A stretch of 42,971 nt of DNA from Hyphomicrobiales bacterium (lineage in GTDB: Bacteria; Pseudomonadota; Alphaproteobacteria; Rhizobiales; Beijerinckiaceae). Location: the NCBI GenBank assembly GCA_026400565.1, contig JAPLOV010000215.1, forward strand, positions 1 to 42,971, written 5' to 3'. Position 1 is the first letter of the stretch; each line of letters starts with the position of its first letter. Under the pieces are notes generated by a model. That model was given only the letters and a program-made list of their open reading frames with translations, did not search any database and was not told the DNA's origin. Position numbers and translations under genes: made by a program. Below, piece by piece: positions 3,743 to 24,091 of the stretch.

Positions 3743-4213
3743 TCAGGCCATCTCCTCGGCCCGGACCAGCCGGGCGATGCGGTCGAGCACGGCGTTGGTG
3801 ATGCCAGGCTCGTCGCCCTCGTAGAAGGCGCGCGCCACCGTGACATACTCGTTGATGGCCACCTTGGGCGGCACATCCTTGCGGAACATCAGTTCATAGG
3901 TGCCGCAGCGCAGCACCGAACGCAGCACCGTCTCGATGCGCTTTAGCGGCCAGCCATCTGCCAGCGCATCATCGACGGCGCGGTCGATCGGGCGCTGCTC
4001 GCGCACCACGCCGCTCAGCACGTCACGGAAAAAATTGGCCTCGGCAGCCGGCAGGGCAATGCCGTCGACCTCCTTGCCCATCCAGAAGGTCTCGAACTCG
4101 GCCATGGCCTCGATCAGGCCCTTGCCGGCCACATCCATCTGGTAAAGCGCCTGCACGGCGGCCAGACGGGCGGCGCGGCGCTTCTCGAGCCGCTGTTCCT
4201 GACGCGCGTTCAC
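3743..4213 (-). CDS. nusB: Transcription antitermination factor NusB
   Basis: Small all-helical RNA-binding protein that joins NusE (S10) on boxA RNA during rRNA antitermination. The 156-residue product starts [28 protein letters not shown], the standard arginine-rich first helix, and carries the family motif [21 protein letters not shown] near the C-terminus. I place the start at the GTG of 4213, which overlaps the ribH stop as GTGA. The longer in-frame reading to 4360 only covers ribH in another frame. This 4-base overlap implies translational coupling to ribH, which is damaged here, so nusB expression may depend on how far ribosomes travel through ribH. Confidence 0.93.
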
Positions 4214-4639
4214 GCTGAGGCCCCGAAGCGCCGCTTCAGCCCGACCATGCTCAGGGCCGCTTCGGCCGCGCCGCCGCCCTTGTCCATGTCGGACTTGCGC
4301 GCCCGTGCCCAGGCCTGCGCCTCGTTCTCGACGGTCAGGATGCCGTTGCCGATGGCCCACTGGCGCTGCACGGAAAGGTCCATCAGCGCACGGCAGCTCT
4401 CGCCCGCCACGATGTCATAGTGCGTGGTCTCTCCGCGGATGACGCAGCCCAGCGCCACGGCCGCGTCATAGGGCCTGCCCTGACGATCCGCGCCATCAAG
4501 CGCGATGGCGATGGCGGCAGGGATCTCCAGCGCACCCGGCACGGTGATCACGATCGTCATAGAATCGCGCCTCAACAATGAGGATGCGCGCGCCGGTCAG
4601 CGGCGAGGTGTCGTGTTTGGCCTTGCTGGCACCAGCCAT
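4210..4639 (-). pseudogene. ribH: 6,7-dimethyl-8-ribityllumazine synthase, broken by internal deletion and frameshift
   Basis: Lumazine synthase condenses the RibA/RibD pathway product with dihydroxybutanone phosphate, the penultimate riboflavin step. From ATG 4639 one frame reads MAGASKAKHDTSPL, then [14 protein letters not shown], and soon stops. From about 4578 the +1-shifted frame reads [14 protein letters not shown], then [26 protein letters not shown] and [11 protein letters not shown] to the stop, which are canonical RibH motifs. In relatives about 22 residues (first helix and following strand) separate FYDD from TVPGALEIP; here they are missing and the frame changes at about 4575-4580. 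Neither frame alone yields a complete enzyme. Many alphaproteobacteria have a second lumazine synthase, which could compensate. A sequencing or assembly deletion is the main alternative. Confidence 0.82.
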
Positions 4640-4675: not shown

Positions 4676-5326
4676 TCAGTAGCCCCCGGCGCGCGCCTCG
4701 GCAAGCCTTGCGGCATAGCGGGCCATCAGATCGACCTCCAGATGCAGACCGTCGCCGACCTTTCGCTCGGCCCAGGTGGTGACGGACAGCGAGTGCGGGA
4801 TCAGCAGCACCGAGAACACATCGCCTTCGACCGTGTTCACGGTCAGCGAGGTGCCATCAAGGCACACGGAGCCTTTCGATGCCACGAACCCGGCCAGATG
4901 CTTCGGGGTGCGGATATGGAAGCGGGCCGTCGCGCCCCAGGGGTCGGATGGGTCGGGCATGATCGGCTCATGGCCCACGATCTCGGCCACGCCGTCGACA
5001 TGGCCGGTGACAAGGTGTCCGCCAAGCTCGTCGCCGATCTTCAGCGAGCGTTCGAGGTTGATGCGCTCACCGACGCGCCAGGCGCTGACGCGCGTCTTGA
5101 CCAGCGTTTCCGCCGCAGCCTCGACCCGGAAGATGCAGCCCGCCTGGCCATCGCGGCGCGGCTCCAGCGCCGTCACTGTCAGGCAGATGCCGGCGCAGGC
5201 GATGGAGGCCCCGATCTCGATGCCCGAAGTCTCATAAGGCGAGGCAATTGCGAGGCGTGTGAGCGTCGGGCCGGCGGCGACGGTTTCGACCACGGTGCCA
5301 ATGCCGGTGACAATGCCGGTGAACAT
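4676..5326 (-). CDS. ribE: Riboflavin synthase alpha subunit
   Basis: Dismutates two 6,7-dimethyl-8-ribityllumazine molecules to riboflavin plus the pyrimidine precursor. The 216-residue protein shows the two lumazine-binding barrel repeats: N-terminal MFTGIVTGIGTV with CAGICLTVTAL, and a second repeat with GHLVTGHVDGVAEI and GTSLTVNTVEGDVFSVLLIP. Length and motif order are normal. Its ATG shares one base with the ribD stop (TGATG), so it is translationally coupled to ribD. The downstream ribH is broken, which makes this intact gene dependent on lumazine from another enzyme if the lesion is real. Confidence 0.95.
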   Translation of the reverse strand: MFTGIVTGIGTVVETVAAGPTLTRLAIASPYETSGIEIGASIACAGICLTVTALEPRRDGQAGCIFRVEAAAETLVKTRVSAWRVGERINLERSLKIGDELGGHLVTGHVDGVAEIVGHEPIMPDPSDPWGATARFHIRTPKHLAGFVASKGSVCLDGTSLTVNTVEGDVFSVLLIPHSLSVTTWAERKVGDGLHLEVDLMARYAARLAEARAGGY

Positions 5327-6456
5327 CAGTCGATCCTTTCGTAGAAAGCGAAGCTGTCGTGGCCGATCATCTCCTGGCGCGCAAGGGCGAAGCGCCGACC
5401 CTCGGCCAGCAGCGCGCCGAGGGCAGGGCGCACTGCCGTGATGCCCTCCTGGCCCAACACCACAGGCGAGGTCGAGACGATCACCTCGTCAGCAAGGCCC
5501 TGCAACGCGAGCTGTTCGCCGACGGTCGGCCCGCCTTCGGAGAACACGCGCGTGATGCCGCGTGTCGCCAGCAAGGTCAGTGCGGCCCTGAGATCGAGGT
5601 GGCCATCGCTGCCGCGTCCGACCCGCATCACCTCGACGCCGGCGGCAACGAGGGCTGCTTCATGCGTTGTCGGGGCGTCATCCGCCGCGATGACCCAGGT
5701 CGGGATATCGCGCGCCGTTTTCGCCAGCACGATGGTCGCCGGCATGCGCAGGCGCGTGTCCAGCACGACGCGCACCGGCGAGCGCCATTCCAGCCCCGGC
5801 AGGCGCACGTTGAGCTGCGGATCGTCGGCGAGCACCGTTTCGATCCCGGCCATGATTGCGTCGTATTCGCTGCGCTGGCGATGCACCCAGAGCCCGGCCT
5901 CGGCGCACGAGATCGCCACGCGCTCGCGCCCTGGCCCGCCCGCATAGCCATCCGCCGTGCGCGCCACCTTGAAGGTTACGCTCGGCAACCCTTCGCGCAC
6001 CCGGCGGAAATGCCCGCGATGCAGCCGTGCTGCCTCTGTGGCCATCAACCCGACATCGACCCTGATGCCGGCGCTGCGCAGAAGGGCGTGGCCAAGACCG
6101 GCAATGCGCGGGTTCTGGTCCTCGATGGCGGACACCACCCGCGTGATGCCAGCTTTCAGGCTGCGCTCGACGCATGGCGTGCCGCCTCTGATGGAGCTGT
6201 AGGAGCACGGCTCCAGCGCCACATATAGGGTTGCCGCGGCGGCGGCATCGCCCGCCTCGGCCAGCGCCATCGCCTCGCCATGGGGCCGGCCGCCGGCTTG
6301 CGTCACGCCTTGACCGACGATCACGGGGCCGGTGGCCGATTGGCGCACCACGACCGCGCCGACCGAGGGGTTCGGCCAGGTCTGGCCCAGCCCTTCACGG
6401 CTCAGCGCCAGCGCCAGCGCCATGAAGCGGGCATCGTCGTCGGGGTCGGGCGTCAC
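5326..6456 (-). CDS. ribD: Bifunctional riboflavin deaminase/reductase RibD
   Basis: Catalyses deamination then side-chain reduction of the pyrimidine intermediate of riboflavin synthesis. The N-terminal deaminase domain (to about residue 145) has TWPNPSVGAVVV, the zinc-site HGEAMAL, and EPC...TPC. The C-terminal DHFR-like reductase domain starts near SVTFKVARTADGY and contains SEGGPTVGEQLA. The two zinc cysteines are separated by a loop two residues longer than the usual PCSHHGRTPPC (it reads PCSYSSIRGGTPC), so the second ligand may be displaced. The start is GTG at 6456; an internal ATG lies at FMALAL. It follows nrdR by 9 bp and overlaps ribE by 1 bp. Confidence 0.94.
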   Translation of the reverse strand: MTPDPDDDARFMALALALSREGLGQTWPNPSVGAVVVRQSATGPVIVGQGVTQAGGRPHGEAMALAEAGDAAAAATLYVALEPCSYSSIRGGTPCVERSLKAGITRVVSAIEDQNPRIAGLGHALLRSAGIRVDVGLMATEAARLHRGHFRRVREGLPSVTFKVARTADGYAGGPGRERVAISCAEAGLWVHRQRSEYDAIMAGIETVLADDPQLNVRLPGLEWRSPVRVVLDTRLRMPATIVLAKTARDIPTWVIAADDAPTTHEAALVAAGVEVMRVGRGSDGHLDLRAALTLLATRGITRVFSEGGPTVGEQLALQGLADEVIVSTSPVVLGQEGITAVRPALGALLAEGRRFALARQEMIGHDSFAFYERID

Positions 6457-12734: not shown

Positions 12735-13712
12735 GTGTCCCGGATCAGGTCTGTCGTGCGTGGCTGTGGGCAGGCCTTGCCCCGCCGTGTTGTGAGCAAT
12801 GCGGAGTTGTCGGCGCTGGTCGAGACCTCCGACGAATGGATCCGACAGCGCAGCGGCATCGAACGCCGGTATATTGCCGACGAAACCGAGACGACATCGG
12901 TGCTGGGAACCGCTGCCGCGCGCGCTGCCCTCGCCAGCGCCGGGATGGTGCCAGCCGACATCGATCTCATCGTCTGCGCGACATCGACGCCGGATTATAC
13001 CTTCCCCGCCACTGCGACCCAGATCCAGAACGCGCTCGACATGCACCATGGTGCGGCCTTCGACGTGCAGGCCGTGTGCTCGGGCTTCGTCTACGCCCTC
13101 ACCGTGGCGGACAAGTTCCTGATCTCGGGCTCGACCCGGTCAGCTCTGGTAATCGGGGCCGAAACCTTCTCGCGCATCCTCGACTGGAAGGATCGCGGCA
13201 CCTGCGTCCTGTTCGGGGACGGGGCCGCCGCGGTGGTGCTGACAGCGGAACACGGCGCCGGCATCAATGCCGACCGGGGTATCCTGCACACCCACATCCG
13301 CTCGGATGGGCGCTACCGCGACAAGCTCTTTGTCGATGGCGGGGCGGGCTCCAACGGCCAGGTCGGCCATCTGCGCATGGAGGGCCGCGAGGTCTTCAAG
13401 CATGCCGTGATCAATCTGGCCGACACGGTCGAGGCGACGCTGGCCGCCACGGGCCTCAAGGGCAGTGACATCGACTGGTTTGTGCCGCATCAGGCCAACA
13501 AGCGCATCATTGATGCCACGGCCCACAAGCTCGGCGTTCCGGAAAGCCGCGTTGTCTACACCGTGCAGGACCACGGCAATACCTCCGCCGCTTCGATCCC
13601 GCTGGCGCTGGCCCGAGCCGTGGGCGATGGCCGCATCCAGCCCGGCCAACTCGTGCTCATTGAAGCGATGGGCGGCGGGTTCACCTGGGGGTCTGCGCTG
13701 ATCCGGTGGTAA
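12735..13712 (+). CDS. fabH: Beta-ketoacyl-ACP synthase III
   Basis: Starts fatty-acid synthesis by condensing acetyl-CoA with malonyl-ACP. The 325-residue product has the full Cys-His-Asn triad: Cys115 in [12 protein letters not shown], His252 in [11 protein letters not shown] and Asn282 in [13 protein letters not shown]. The N-terminal [15 protein letters not shown] is also typical. The start is GTG 12735, 18 bp after plsX, so the two are probably co-transcribed. The terminal [13 protein letters not shown] is the family end. No missing residue was noted. Confidence 0.97.
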
Positions 13713-13909: not shown

Positions 13910-14140
13910 ATGGCTGACGAAACCATTACAAGAGCCGATCTGAGCGAGGCGGTTTACCAGAAGATCGGCCTGTCACGCACGGAATCGGCAGCGCTGGTTG
14001 AGACCGTCCTGGGCGAGATCAGCGACTGCATCCTGCGCGGCGAAAACGTCAAGCTCTCGTCCTTCGGCTCGTTCATCGTGCGGTCCAATGTGATGAAGGC
14101 CCGCGTCAACGGCCTCGATGCTGCGGGCGAGGACGATTGA
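13910..14140 (+). CDS. ihfA: Integration host factor alpha, internally deleted (lacks DNA-binding arm)
   Basis: IHF alpha/beta heterodimers bend DNA through two beta-arms. This 76-residue product matches alphaproteobacterial IhfA from [29 protein letters not shown] through [15 protein letters not shown], then jumps to [10 protein letters not shown], the normal C-terminal helix. The intervening segment of about 27-28 residues, which in relatives holds the arm, the GRNPKTG motif with the intercalating proline, and PISPRRV, is absent in frame. Normal length is about 100-110. The dimerisation core remains, so the product might pair with IHF beta without bending DNA. The ATG at 13910 gives the family N-terminus. 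Position between fabH and merR is the usual one for ihfA. A collapsed assembly deletion is the alternative. Confidence 0.85.
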
Positions 14141-14187
14141 GCTTCCAGGCCAGCCACATGTCGGCCTTTCCGGCCGAGGAGGAGCCG

Positions 14188-14691
14188 ATGGTCGACAAGA
14201 GCCCGGATGCCTTTCGGACCATCAGCGAGGTCTCTGAAGACCTCGATCTGCCCCAGCACGTCTTGCGTTTTTGGGAGACGCGCTTCCCCCAGATCAAGCC
14301 GCTGAAGCGGGGCGGTAACCGCCGCTATTATCGCCCGGACGATGTTGCGCTGATCACGGGCCTGAAGATCCTGCTCTATGGGCAGGGCTACACCATCAAG
14401 GGCGTCCAGCGCATTCTGAAAGAGCAGGGGGCCCGCGCCGTACAGGCCGTGGGGCGCGGCGGAGCGGTACCAGCGGCGCTGCCCGGTGACGGCCATGATG
14501 GCGCAGCAGCCATGCGGCCCGCTGCTCCTGCGCCAGGGGCTGCTCCCAAGCCAGCCGCACAACCGGCAAGGCGGGCGGCAGGCCAGCCGCTCAGCGCTGA
14601 TGCCGGAACCGTCCTGCGCATGGCGCTGTCGGAGTTGCAGGGTGCGCGCAATGATCTGGTCCGCGCACTCTCTGGCCCCGCAGAGAACTGA
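14188..14691 (+). CDS. MerR-family transcriptional regulator
   Basis: A 167-residue regulator with an N-terminal winged helix: [45 protein letters not shown], then the helix [24 protein letters not shown]. The C-terminal part is Ala/Pro-rich and low-complexity (about residues 90-135), ending in a short helix, with no metal-binding Cys pattern. This is the MerR-like protein found next to ihfA in many alphaproteobacteria. AGGAGG precedes ATG 14188, so that start is chosen over 14137. It follows ihfA by 47 bp and is probably co-transcribed. Its target genes are unknown. Confidence 0.92.
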
Positions 14692-14700
14692 TCAGCCCTG

Positions 14701-15965
14701 ATGACCGCCACAGCAACGGGACCTGACAGGCCGGTGCAGTCCTGACGCATCCGGGTCGCTGTCGACATCGGCGGCGCCTTCACCGATCTCGAATGCCTCG
14801 ACGAGGACAACGGCGCGATCCTCAGCCACAAGGTGCCGACAACGCCGGAAGACCCGTCTATCGGCCTGCTCGATGCCATCACCTCGGCGGCCAGCCGCCA
14901 TGGCTTCACGCTCGATGACATCACCTTGCTGATCCATGGCACCACCATAGCCACCAATGCTGTGCTGACCCGCGATCTGCCAGTCGCTGCGCTGATCACC
15001 ACGGCAGGCTTCGAGGACGTGCTGGAAATCGGCTGGCATGCGCGGCGCGATGTCTATTGGGCTTTGCCCCGAGGAACGCACGGTGCTCGCCGCACGTCAC
15101 CTTCGCTTCGGCTTCAGGTAACGCATCAGCGCCAACGGCACCGCTCTGACGGCACTCGACATGGTCGATCTTGACCGGGTATCGACCGCATAGCTGCGTG
15201 CGGCGCTGGCGTCGTGGCAGTGTCGCTGCTGGGCAGCTTCGTCGATCCCTCACACGAGATCGCAATTCGTGAGAGGTTTGCCGAACGCCTGCCGGGGCTA
15301 CCCTGCTCATGCTCGCATGAGGTGTCGCCCGAGATCCGTGAGTTCGAGCGCACCTCCACAACCGTGCTCAACGTGCTGCTGATGCCTGTCGTCCAGCGCA
15401 ATGTGGCCGGCCTTCTGGCGAGGACAAGGCAAGCTGGGCTGGCCGCACCGCTTTATCTCGTCCAGTCCAATACCGGGGCGACGTCGCCCGAGCAGGTGGG
15501 CCCGGCACCCGTCAACCTGCTGCTCTCCGGCCCTTCCGGCGGCGTGCTGGCCGCGCAGAAGGTAGCTGCCGCCGCTGGCCGCGACAACATCGTGGCTGTC
15601 GACATGGGCGGCACGAGCTACGACATCACCATCATCCAGAATGGTCGCCGCTCAGTTATCGCGCAGGGCGATATTGATGGGCTTCCTGTGCGCGTGCCCA
15701 TGGTTGACATGCGCACCATCGGCGCGGGCAGCGGCCCGTGATCTGGCTCGACAGTTCGGGCCGGCTCGAGGTTGGCCCGCAAAGTGCCGGCGCGAGGCCC
15801 CGCCCTGTCTGCGACGGGCGCGGCGGCACCGAGCCGACGGTCACCGACGTCAACCTCATGCTCGGCAGGCTTGACGCGGCCAGCTTCATGGGCGGCTTGC
15901 TGGCACTCGATCTGGCGGGTGCGCAGGCCGCGCTGGATCGCCGCATTGCCGGCCCGCTCTGCCTG
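14701..15965 (+). pseudogene. Hydantoinase/oxoprolinase subunit A (HyuA) remnant
   Basis: An ATP-dependent hydantoinase A-type gene in advanced decay. From ATG 14701 the frame hits TGA at 14743 and continues RIRVAVDIGGAFTDLE, then LIHGTTIATNAVLTRD and TAGFEDVLEIG to about 15060. A shifted frame (15065 onward, two internal stops) carries ERTVLAARHLRFGF. From about 15214 a third stretch holds LLGSFVDPSHE, EFERTSTTVLN, LLLSGPSGGVLAAQK and AVDMGGTSYDI, stopping at 15739. Another shift (15738 on) gives VGPQSAGA and GRGGTEPTVTDVNLMLGRLD. Homology ends near 15960, roughly 60% into a normal protein of about 680 residues, directly against the end of the convergent enolase gene. No HyuB partner is present. 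Confidence 0.85.
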
Positions 15966-15975
15966 AGGCGCGCCG

Positions 15976-17097: not shown

Positions 17098-18162
17098 TCA
17101 GGCGGCTTCGTCGTCAGGCAGGAGCATGACCTTCATGCTCTGGCTGCGGTCGAGCGCCAGTTCAAACGCTTCCGGCGCCTGCGATAACGGACGGCTGGCG
17201 GTGATGATGTCGGTGACATCGATGGCGCGCTCGGCAATCAGCGTCACGGCGCGGCTGAACTCGGTGCCAAAGCGGAAGCTGCCGCGCAGGTCGATCTCGC
17301 GCGCCATGACCGCAAGACCGGGCAGGGGGATCGGCCCGCCGGGCAGGTTGCCGATCTGCACGACGATGCCGCCGCGCCTGACCGCCAGCAGCGCCGATGC
17401 CAGAGCAGCCGGAGCGCCAGAGGCCTCGAACACCACATCGAACGGGGTGGTTGCTCCCCCCTGGATCAGGGCGTCGTCCTGAGCGGCGAGGTCAATGACC
17501 TGATCGGCACCAAGCCGTGCCGCAAAGGCCAGCGGGGCGGCGGCAATGTCGGCCAGTGCAACGCGCGCCGCTCCCGCCTGACGCGCCGCCAGCATGGTCA
17601 GCAACCCGATGGGACCTGCGCCGATGATCAGCACCGATGTGTCCGACAAAGGCCCGGCCCGCGCCACCGCATGAAGGCAGACAGCGAGCGGCTCGGCCAG
17701 CGCAGCGGCAGCGAACGGCACATGCGCCGGAACCGGCATGCATTGCGCCGGAACAACATCGATGTGCTTCGCGAAGCCGCCTTGCATGTGCGGGGTCTTC
17801 GAGGCCGACCCCATGAAGTAGATGTTCTCGCACAGGTTGGGCCGCCCCAACCGGCAGGGCCGGCAGGTGCCGCACCAGCGCGACGGATTGATCGCCACCC
17901 GGTCGCCGATCGCCAGATCGCCAGCCGCCCCGCTCATGTCGATGATGGTGCCGGCAATCTCGTGTCCGAGCACCAGCGGTGATGTCACCACGAAATCGCC
18001 GGTGCGGGCATGGCGGAAATAGTGCATGTCCGAGCCGCAAATCCCGCCCGCCCCGAAGGCGACGCGGACCATGCCCGGTGCCAGCGCGGGCATCGGTGCC
18101 GCCACCAGCCTGAGATCGCGCGGCCCGAACAGGGTCGCCGCCTGCTGGTGGCTGGCGCTCAC
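17098..18162 (-). CDS. Zinc-dependent alcohol dehydrogenase, L-idonate 5-dehydrogenase type
   Basis: Medium-chain dehydrogenase/reductase of 354 residues. The catalytic zinc site is visible in GICGSDMHYF (Cys), LGHEIAG (His/Glu) and LAEPLAVC (Glu). The structural zinc comes from the four cysteines of WCGTCRPCRLGRPNLC. The Rossmann motif is IIGAGPIGLL with Asp after VALAD, suggesting NAD+. The overall pattern is closest to L-idonate 5-dehydrogenase/sorbitol dehydrogenase proteins. The GTG start at 18162 overlaps the dctM stop as GTGA, so it is coupled to the transporter. It probably oxidises a polyol or sugar acid brought in by DctPQM. Confidence 0.9.
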   Translation of the reverse strand: MSASHQQAATLFGPRDLRLVAAPMPALAPGMVRVAFGAGGICGSDMHYFRHARTGDFVVTSPLVLGHEIAGTIIDMSGAAGDLAIGDRVAINPSRWCGTCRPCRLGRPNLCENIYFMGSASKTPHMQGGFAKHIDVVPAQCMPVPAHVPFAAAALAEPLAVCLHAVARAGPLSDTSVLIIGAGPIGLLTMLAARQAGAARVALADIAAAPLAFAARLGADQVIDLAAQDDALIQGGATTPFDVVFEASGAPAALASALLAVRRGGIVVQIGNLPGGPIPLPGLAVMAREIDLRGSFRFGTEFSRAVTLIAERAIDVTDIITASRPLSQAPEAFELALDRSQSMKVMLLPDDEAA

Positions 18163-19487
18163 CGCACCATGCCCATCGTACGCGGGAGCCAGAGCGTAAT
18201 CTCAGGCACGAAAGTGATCGCGATAAGGGCCGCAAAAAGAGGCGCCAGCCAGGGCAGGATTGCCATCGTGGTGCGCTCCACCGAAAGCTTCGCAACCCTG
18301 CTGAGAACGAACAGCACCATGCCCAGCGGCGGATGCAACAGCCCAATCATCAGGTTCAGCGTCATGATCAGCCCGAAATGCACCGGATCGATGCCAAGTT
18401 TCAGCACAATGGGCAGCAGGATCGGCACAAGGATCGTAATCGCTGCGATGGTGTCGAGGAAGCAGCCGACAAATAGCATCAGCAGGTTTACAAGGACGAG
18501 GAACACATACTTGTTGTCGGTAATCGAAAAGATCAGCGTCGACAGGGCACTTGCCGCCTGCGAGACGGTCAGCAGCCACGCAAAGATGGACGCTGCCGTG
18601 ACGATGAACAGCACGGAGGCAGTGGTCTCAATCGTATCGAACGTCGCCTTGGCCAGCGATTTCATGGTCATCGACCGATAGCGGACCAGCCCGAGGAACA
18701 GCGACCACATCACAGCGGCAACAGCGGCCTCGGTCGGTGTGAACCAACCCAGCGTCATGCCGCCGATCAGGATCACCGGCGTCATCAGCGCCATCACGGC
18801 CGAGAACTTGAACAGGTAGTCAAGCGCTAGAACGATGCCGAGTGCCAGGAAGATCGCGGCGTTCTGCTCCATGCCGAAGCCCTCGTAATCCGCCTTCTTG
18901 TGCTTCAGGGTGAACGGCAGGCGGCCGCCCAGCCAGCCCTGAATGCCGGTCATCAGCACGCCGGGGATCACGCCACCGAGGAAAAGCGAGCCGATCGAGA
19001 CATTGGCCATCATGCCGTAGATCACGAAAGGCAGGGAGGGCGGGATGATCGGCCCGAGCGTGGCGGAGGCGGCGGTGACACCGACGGCCACCTCGATCGG
19101 GTAGCCATGGTCCTTCATCGCCTTAATCTCAATGGTGCCGATGCCGGCCGCATCCGCGATCGCGGTGCCGGACATGCCGGAGAAGATCACCGAACCGATG
19201 ATGTTGACCTGAGCCAGCCCGCCGCGCATCCAGCCTACGAGAGCAACCGCAAACGCATAGATGCGCCCGGTTACGCCGGCAATGTTCATCAGGTTGCCGG
19301 CCAGGATGAAGAAGGGCACCGCCAGCAGCGGAAAGCTCTCCACTCCGGCGATCATGCGCTGTGCCACGATCACGTCCGGCGCGCCGCCATGGACCAGTAG
19401 ATAGGCCAGCGAGGCTGTCACCATGGCCACAGCCACAGGCACGCCCAACACCATCAGCAAAAGGAAACCGCCCAGCAGGACCAGCAT
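18159..19487 (-). CDS. dctM: TRAP transporter large permease (DctM type)
   Basis: The 12-helix membrane subunit that carries the solute with Na+ in tripartite ATP-independent periplasmic transporters. The 442-residue product is almost wholly hydrophobic, with FPLLAVPFFILAGNLMN, GGLAQVNIIGSVIFSGMSGTAIADAAG, IPPSLPFVIYG and the late PILLPIVLKLGIDPVHFGLIM, all typical of DctM. Its ATG shares one base with the dctQ stop (TGATG), and its own stop overlaps the dehydrogenase start. The gene order dctP-dctQ-dctM is standard. The family also uses the names SiaM/UehC. Confidence 0.95.
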   Translation of the reverse strand: MLVLLGGFLLLMVLGVPVAVAMVTASLAYLLVHGGAPDVIVAQRMIAGVESFPLLAVPFFILAGNLMNIAGVTGRIYAFAVALVGWMRGGLAQVNIIGSVIFSGMSGTAIADAAGIGTIEIKAMKDHGYPIEVAVGVTAASATLGPIIPPSLPFVIYGMMANVSIGSLFLGGVIPGVLMTGIQGWLGGRLPFTLKHKKADYEGFGMEQNAAIFLALGIVLALDYLFKFSAVMALMTPVILIGGMTLGWFTPTEAAVAAVMWSLFLGLVRYRSMTMKSLAKATFDTIETTASVLFIVTAASIFAWLLTVSQAASALSTLIFSITDNKYVFLVLVNLLMLFVGCFLDTIAAITILVPILLPIVLKLGIDPVHFGLIMTLNLMIGLLHPPLGMVLFVLSRVAKLSVERTTMAILPWLAPLFAALIAITFVPEITLWLPRTMGMVR

Positions 19488-21214: not shown

Positions 21215-22095
21215 GGACGTTCTCTCCTGATCTGGATTCTTGTTGTGGTGCGAAGGCGGACCGCTTGCGGCAGCCGGGGTGAGCCCTGGCGGGTTCTTCC
21301 GATGCCGGGCTTTTTCGGCGCGATGGGCAAGACCTCGCCGAAATTCTTGGAAAAGCGCAGTTGCGAATTGTGCAGGTGCATCTTCATGGCGCGGCGCGCA
21401 CCGGTGCTGTCCTGCGCCGCCAGCCGGTCACGGATCACCTCATGCTCGGCCAGCGCCGCGCGCCAGCTCTCCGCATCCTCGAAATAGCTGGCAAGCTGCG
21501 CGAAGTAGGGGTTGAGCCGCTGGTCGAAAAGATCGCCAACGACCTTGGTCACCGCGTCGTTGCCGAGCATGTCGGCCACGGCGGTGTGGAATGCGCGATC
21601 ATGCACCATGCTCTGCGCACCCGGATGGATGGCGGCGGCCATCTCGGCGATGGCGGCATCGACGGAGGCAAGCGTCGCCGGCGTCGCGATCAGCGCCGCT
21701 TCCTCGGCGACCGCGGCTTCGATCAGGGCACGGGCCTTGAGCACCTCGAACGGGCCGGCAACGGGCTGGGGCTCTGCGGGCGTGCCGGTCTCCGGCGGTG
21801 GCGGCAACACATGGATGCCGGAGCCGACGCGGATGCTGACGCGCCCGTCGACCTCCAGCGCAATCAGGGCCTCGCGCACTGTGGGCCGCGAAATGCCGAG
21901 CTGCATGGCCAGATCGCGCTCCGGTGGCAGCCGCGAGCCGACGGGGAACTCGCCAGCATCGATGAGCTGTCGGAGCTGGTCCGCCACCTGCCGGTAAAGC
22001 CGGCGCGGAATGATGGCCTCGATGGGCATGGCCGTGCGGCCTCCGCCTTGTTGTTTCCCCATGGCCTTCCTTGCTCCGCCTTGTTGTTTCCCCAT
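21208..22095 (-). CDS. GntR-family regulator, FadR subfamily
   Basis: Likely controls its own gene and the downstream TRAP/catabolic genes. The winged helix is LYRQVADQLRQLIDAGEF then LPPERDLAMQLGISRPTVREAL. The FCD ligand domain contains DRAFHTAVADML, ALAEHEVIRDRL and KMHLHNSQLRF, which supply the usual Asp and three His metal/ligand residues. Three in-frame ATGs at 22095, 22062 and 22029 are spaced exactly 33 bp apart because of a tandem duplication; any could be used. The reading to 22164 crosses the operator and is unlikely. The last about 40 residues extend past the FCD domain (Arg/Pro-rich) and overlap dctP by 7 bases. Confidence 0.9.
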   Translation of the reverse strand: MGKQQGGARKAMGKQQGGGRTAMPIEAIIPRRLYRQVADQLRQLIDAGEFPVGSRLPPERDLAMQLGISRPTVREALIALEVDGRVSIRVGSGIHVLPPPPETGTPAEPQPVAGPFEVLKARALIEAAVAEEAALIATPATLASVDAAIAEMAAAIHPGAQSMVHDRAFHTAVADMLGNDAVTKVVGDLFDQRLNPYFAQLASYFEDAESWRAALAEHEVIRDRLAAQDSTGARRAMKMHLHNSQLRFSKNFGEVLPIAPKKPGIGRTRQGSPRLPQAVRLRTTTRIQIRRERPC

Positions 22096-22105
22096 GGCCT
22101 TCCTT
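22040..22105 (-). repeat. 33-bp tandem duplication carrying ribosome site and start codon
   Basis: Two copies, 22073-22105 and 22040-22072, differ at one of 33 positions. Each contains AAGGAAGGCC followed by ATG and seven codons, so each is a complete translation start for gntR. The third ATG (22029) follows at the same 33-bp spacing in a diverged context. The unit is a multiple of three, so starting at any copy keeps the gntR frame and changes only the N-terminal tail by 11 residues. Confidence 0.9.
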
Positions 22106-22130
22106 GGTCGGAAGATCCTTTTGCTGGCCA

Positions 22131-23526: not shown

Positions 23527-23541
23527 AACGCAAGCCTCGAT

Positions 23542-23645
23542 GTCATCCCCAGCGGCGCGGAGCGCCGGGAAGGGGACCCATTCCAGTGCACGATGATGGA
23601 TTCCCTACCCCTCCACGCCCTTCGGGCTCTCCGGCCGGGAATGAC
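23542..23645. repeat. REP-like palindromic element 1
   Basis: A 104-bp GC-rich element starts GTCATCCCC and ends GGGAATGAC, so its termini are near-perfect inverted repeats. Inside are further CCGG/CGCG palindromic pieces. Its left half aligns base for base over long stretches with the second element at 23973. Such extragenic GTCATTCCCGG elements are common in Rhizobiales. It starts just upstream of the pyrC start. Confidence 0.6.
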
Positions 23646-23655
23646 ACCAGAAGGA

Positions 23656-23943: not shown

Positions 23944-23972
23944 GCAGTCTCCACGGTGCAGGCAACCTCGGT

Positions 23973-24067
23973 GTCATTCCCGGCGCGCCAAAAGCGCGGG
24001 AAGGGAAGCCACAATGCACCAAAACAAAGGATCCCCTTCCCGGCGCGTGCCGCACCGCCGGGGAGGA
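23973..24067. repeat. REP-like palindromic element 2
   Basis: Begins GTCATTCCCGGCGCGCC and includes a paired CTTCCCGGCGCG block near 24036, giving internal inverted repeats. It resembles element 1 in the same orientation: GTCAT, a GGCGCG block, a GCGGGAAGGG-type block, TGCAC, then GGAT and CCC. The two flank the broken GIY-YIG gene. Its right end is less clear than its left. Confidence 0.5.
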
Positions 24068-24091
24068 CCGCTAACGCTAATCCATCAGTGA

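Follow-up and report, generated by a model that had tools for sequence, protein, structure and literature searches.

A 28-codon gap in the ihfA gene of a Bosea-like draft genome: probably faulty assembly or a recent break in the gene

Does the ihfA gene of the Bosea-like draft genome G000, which as assembled lacks the codons of the DNA-binding arm, encode a new kind of IHF-alpha, or was the gene misassembled or recently broken? The window, that is, the whole stretch of 42,971 nucleotides that was analyzed, is contig C72 of this draft, which comprises 3.44 Mb in 267 contigs and is 94.0% complete with 2.7% contamination. Among the FabH matches listed, the nearest came from two metagenome genomes of Hyphomicrobiales bacterium (pond D1 and LacPavin isolates), followed by Bosea. 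Taken together, the comparisons indicated that faulty assembly or a recent break in the gene is the most likely source of the loss of 28 codons, rather than a new kind of protein.

The ihfA locus and the missing 84 bases

The following features of the window were delimited around the gene:

12735..13712, + strand: fabH (3-oxoacyl-ACP synthase III), the 5' neighbor of ihfA, with an intact frame
13910..14140, + strand: ihfA, 76 codons and a stop, without codons 59-86 of its relatives (open reading frame, profile searches, alignment of relatives)
14082..14083, + strand: junction of the 84-bp omission in ihfA (GTGCG / GTCCAAT), with 0-1 base common to both edges (DNA alignment)
14137..14691, + strand: MerR-type regulator, the 3' neighbor of ihfA, with an intact frame (open reading frame); its start may be the ATG at 14188 instead of 14137

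The gene order fabH-ihfA-merR was the same in the genomes G033, G026, and G066, and hence the window gene occupies the orthologous ihfA locus, which confirmed the identity given to it in the preliminary description. Its product has 76 residues, and the motif GSFIVR runs in frame into the downstream segment as far as the stop codon at 14140, so that the uninterrupted in-frame junction previously described was real in the assembled letters. The protein was placed in the HU/IHF superfamily by PF00216 (42 bits against a cut-off of 22.4), although only profile positions 2-55 of 90 were covered, and it fell below both curated cut-offs for IHF-alpha, with 69.9 bits for NF001401 (cut-off 111) and 66.7 bits for TIGR00987 (cut-off 120.25). 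The matches to the IHF-alpha models ended at residue 60-63. In an alignment of 35 rows (A1, composed of the window and 34 of the first 37 named loci, with L108, L136, and L139 omitted), 28 columns were gapped in the window row alone, and the arm with its conserved tip proline was absent from that row.

The two nearest relatives in the comparison, G033 (L006) and G026 (L005), belong to the same genus and have an ihfA of 104 residues at the same locus. When the DNA was aligned with both of them, exactly 84 bp, corresponding to codons 59-86, were absent between positions 14082 and 14083, and the other 76 codons encoded a protein identical to that of G033, in agreement with the good conservation previously noted for the rest of the protein. 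Furthermore, an intact gene for the full 104-residue protein was found in all six of the other HU-less Bosea-like genomes (G033, G026, G066, G069, G072, and G080), a group, or clade, that was defined by common residues and gene content. These six proteins share with the window protein residues that were not seen in the Bosea proteins read, and differ from it in the 28 residues that it lacks.

The arm was present in all 29 ihfA loci fetched from other genomes (57 other genomes matched in that search) and in 78 of the 80 named loci, which were the best 80 of a longer list and from which records very near G000 may be absent. The gene was found in 37 of these 80 loci by a first pattern, while wider patterns added 11 and 30 more, all of them armed; since the wider patterns look for the arm, they could not on their own reveal an armless gene in those 41 loci. 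No ihfA was recognizable in the remaining two, L107 and L133, both of which are short contigs. Across the order, 239 of 249 genomes, its own included, matched the short protein, and among the matches listed (E to ~9e-19) all but its own ended at query residue 59-64, where the arm starts; the sequences of G042 and G050, which gave longer alignments, both carry the arm. Thus, the arm was kept in every relative whose ihfA was read. According to a survey of HU/IHF sequences, deletions in IHF-alpha occur in 0.5% of the sequences, all of them in the loop that connects helix 1 to helix 2 (PMC5683647). A natural armless or dominant-negative IHF was not found among the titles and the opening parts of abstracts listed from one open-access library.

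The sequence at the left edge of the gap was GTGCGC in G033, G026, and G066, GTGCGG in L062 and L068, and GTCCGC in G069, and after this CGC or CGG the same-group relatives read AA(G/A)-AAG. The right edge was AAGCCG-TCCAAT in G033, G026, L062, and L068. Across the junction the window reads GTGCGGTCCAAT, so that the edges have no base in common if the ancestor had CGC and one if it had CGG. A TCCAA microhomology had been proposed as the cause of the deletion; it presupposes serine-lysine codons on the left side of the gap, where these relatives have lysine-lysine, and the same-group relatives do not carry TCCAA there. Hence, this mechanism was discarded.

The 76 common codons differed from those of G033 at eight bases, all synonymous: five changes were specific to the window (codons 6, 8, 15, 22, and 31), two lay on the G033 side (codons 36 and 50) and one was at the junction (codon 58). 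No nonsynonymous change was found on the branch of the window, and the probability of five synonymous and no nonsynonymous changes without constraint since the split from G033 was 0.001-0.003. Therefore, a neutral deletion would have to fall within roughly the final quarter of the branch, and purifying selection on ihfA either continues or ended very recently.

The predicted product and its possible partners

To judge from single-chain AlphaFold2 predictions built from 35 sequences, the 28 missing residues include more than the arm. The intact homolog L062 was modeled with a mean pLDDT of 88.6 (54 in its own last block), with strands at 47-49, 53-60, 63-66, 73-76, and 79-86 and a last helix at 88-94. 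In this model the body strands beta-1, beta-2, and beta-3 correspond to 47-49, 53-60, and 79-86, and the arm strands to 63-66 and 73-76, so that residues 59-86 take in the arm and body strand beta-3. The model of the short form had a mean pLDDT of 70.4, with 52, 48, and 40 in its last three blocks, and it contained a low-confidence helix at 60-66 but no strand of at least three residues; the three-stranded body sheet was therefore absent from the predicted window protein. These models suggest that the body of the protein is damaged by the loss. When phmmer was run against chain A of PDB entry 1ihf, the match of the short protein stopped at query residue 62, just beyond the junction, whereas the intact protein was aligned from 6 to 97. 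Compared with IhfA of Escherichia coli (1ihf chain A and other PDB IHF-alpha chains), the window protein is thus alike in residues 6-62 and lacks the end of beta-2, the whole arm with its N-P-K-T-G tip, and beta-3.

The preliminary description had assumed that only the arm was lost and that the product could dimerize with IHF-beta yet not bend DNA, acting as a dominant negative. The arm and its proline are indeed absent, but beta-3 (residues 79-86 of the intact homolog) is gone too; this makes a stable dimer-only product doubtful, and the reading as a dominant negative or new variant is weakly supported at best. An intact ihfB, with its arm, was found in the same draft (G000:C39).

The existence of a second ihfA, which had also been suggested, was not borne out. 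A search of G000 with the intact G033 protein (E<=10) returned nothing beyond two IHF-beta-like genes and the two halves of the gene at this locus, and no stray arm fragment was found in the draft (~94% complete). The second of the IHF-beta-like genes, L150 (G000:C38, 6701-6973, - strand), lies on a 7.1-kb contig with transposition-like genes, which resemble istA/istB of IS21. It has 57% identity to the ihfB of the clade, and in 59 of the 60 relatives with a match the best one reaches no more than 62% identity; the oxidase-like gene beside it had weak matches (36-41%) in five of nine other genomes of the genus. This gene was considered as a compensating partner and rejected, given its transposition-like context and low identity to relatives; foreign origin or contamination during binning may account for it.

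Additionally, a gene for HU of the Bosea type was present in 54 of the 61 sampled genomes of the genus (86-100% identity) and absent from seven: G000, G026, G033, G066, G069, G072, and G080. These seven genomes are small (3.2-3.9 Mb), and one of them, G066, consists of two contigs, is 100% complete and has an intact ihfA. Family searches of the seven detected IHF-type genes only; these include the odd C38 gene of G000 and, in G072, an additional ihfB that resembles the Bosea one. On these searches, IHF seems to be the sole HU-family protein of the HU-less genomes.

Other lesions in the same draft genome

Two further damaged genes were located in the window:

4213..4639, - strand: ribH (lumazine synthase), with a frameshifting clean omission of 62 bp at 4551/4552 relative to G033 (alignment, genome search)
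14740..15967, + strand: remains of hyuA (hydantoinase/oxoprolinase A) (comparison with G033)

The ribH gene is an important one, and the copy on the window contig was the only one found in the draft. Relative to G033, hyuA has one base more at 15058 and one base fewer after both 15180 and 15738, and a 2.49-kb deletion, whose edges have ~12 near-matching bases in common, takes the whole of hyuB together with the last part of hyuA. On another contig, C54 (L206), a clean omission of 64 bp was observed at 4925, close to the beginning of an amidohydrolase gene, and an in-frame clean omission of 39 bp at ~5422-5438, in a molybdopterin oxidoreductase gene. The latter removes the stretch S-W-D-E-A-L-D, an important motif.

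For a wider comparison, 23 stretches of G000 (277.5 kb) were set against 104 stretches (1.53 Mb) of the ~3.6 Mb of G033; the part that could be aligned amounted to 125.8 kb in 11 stretches, ~3.7% of G000. In these 125.8 kb there were four short clean omissions within genes, of 39-84 bp, all of them missing from G000, and by our reading of the alignments the bases common to their edges were 0-1 for ihfA and 0, 0, and ~2 for the others. The nine other aligned stretches contained no short clean in-gene omission; in two of them the differences were larger or divergent, with net sizes of 30 and 314 bases. All the gaps of at least 15 bp missing in G000 measured 84, 2494, 63 (62 by letters), 78, 64, 39, 678, 314, and 30, and the sequences of at least 15 bp extra in G000 measured 33 (a tandem duplication), 46, 62, 279, and 75 (at an N run).

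Some other differences were seen in the window. In dctM (18159-19487, - strand), 70 bases at 18879-18948 stand in place of 148 unrelated bases of G033 without loss of the frame, and this replacement (a net gap of 78 bp) is either a mosaic segment or another assembly oddity. A unit of 33 bases, single in G033, is tandemly repeated at ~22041-22106. Pieces of ~110 bases at ~23538-23651 and ~23964-24068 match many contigs of G033 at ~70-95% on both strands, and represent a putative interspersed repeat family.

The draft contained six internal runs of N, of 4-37 bases, in 277.5 kb, and none was present in 678.7 kb of G033 (44 stretches checked); hence, G000 is a scaffolded draft. One of these runs (L202) is flanked on both sides by the same 15 bases; here G000 is 75 bases longer than G033, the Ns and the duplicated 15 bases accounting for 32 of them. 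This draft therefore contains a faulty join, none of the six N runs being in the window. According to a study of metagenome genomes, Ns inserted despite an overlap, as well as joins and consensus unsupported by reads, are local assembly errors (PMC7111523). G000 shares with the errors so described the N run between overlapping ends. The study also names incorrect protein-coding sequences, the counterpart in G000 being the recurrent clean gaps; its main text never uses the word "deletion".

Explanations for the loss of 28 codons

Assembly error was placed first because clean gaps recur in G000 and the draft has a faulty scaffold join: on the compared sequences, 84 bases were probably left out of the assembly at a local join, the true ihfA having an ordinary arm. 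The preliminary description had itself named an assembly deletion as what would refute its reading. Such an omission could have arisen, for example, when the ends of contigs were joined directly while gaps were being closed or scaffolds built, and the clean omissions across the draft would then share a technical cause. The similar clean gaps in ribH and in two other genes of the same draft support this explanation, as do the remaining ihfA codons, which evolve as in a working gene (five synonymous changes, no nonsynonymous), and the survey in which all IHF-alpha deletions fall in the helix 1-2 loop. Nevertheless, several observations go against it. There is no N at the ihfA join or anywhere in the window, the length of the gap is exactly divisible by three, which would occur by chance in one case in three, and the faulty N-join that was compared has extra bases instead of missing ones. 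Moreover, the aligned part covers ~3.7% of G000, and the less clean gaps run both ways. The single-base frameshifts in the nearby hyuAB look biological, so that true deletions may also occur here.

A recent, real in-frame deletion, that is, a null ihfA allele in this strain, was considered possible but clearly less probable than an omission. The product, without beta-3 and arm, would form no stable IHF, and the cell would live on IHF-beta alone or belong to a short-lived mutant lineage, ribH and hyuAB being also broken in a decaying genome. The repeat-free join fits such an event, as it would be hard to obtain by repeat collapse in a k-mer graph, and the damage to the adjacent hyuAB, with three single-base indels and the 2.49-kb deletion, looks like ordinary decay. 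A null allele is also consistent with the poor predicted structure of the short form (pLDDT 70.4 against 88.6 for the intact L062) and with the lack of a second ihfA in the draft. However, the loss would be surprising where HU is already absent and where ihfA is intact in the six other members of the group; the loss of IHF would be costlier in such a group, which argues mildly against a tolerated null. The absence of nonsynonymous changes (P 0.001-0.003 if the gene had been unconstrained since the split from G033) also speaks against it, and the loss of the only ribH would further demand riboflavin uptake.

A functional armless IHF-alpha, in which the 76-residue protein pairs with IHF-beta as a non-bending partner or as an antagonist, was judged improbable. 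The start, the stop, and the frame are kept, the remaining residues are identical to those of G033, and IHF-beta is intact with its arm, all of which would suit such a protein. Against it, beta-3 is predicted to be removed along with the arm, and a form of this kind was seen in none of the other genomes read: the arm was present in 29 of 29 fetched and 78 of 80 named loci, and among the matches listed in the order-wide search all but its own ended at residue 59-64. The ribH frameshift on the same contig is likewise not explained by selection for a variant IHF. It is very improbable that an armless IHF-alpha has been maintained in this HU-less lineage, so that its sole HU-family dimer would consist of IHF-beta and a shortened, non-wrapping partner.

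Finally, that the missing piece, or another and intact copy of ihfA, lies elsewhere in the genome (as a duplicate, an inversion, or a split gene) was regarded as extremely improbable, since, even though the draft is estimated to be 94% complete and some sequence is missing from the assembly, the search with the intact G033 protein (E<=10) gave only this locus and the two IHF-beta-like genes, and the window locus is the orthologous one.

As it stands, the ihfA gene of G000 is a warning that an in-frame gap in a draft genome can mimic a striking protein variant; inspecting further conserved genes in that draft is a rapid safeguard against such mimicry. If the reading as a variant were true, an armless IHF-alpha in an HU-less lineage would be a natural non-bending or antagonistic IHF. 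Were the deletion genuine and maintained, it would reveal how small a part of the IHF protein suffices for a cell, and would offer a natural separation of dimerization from bending. The small Bosea-like genomes without HU but with IHF are a better biological starting point than the armless ihfA.
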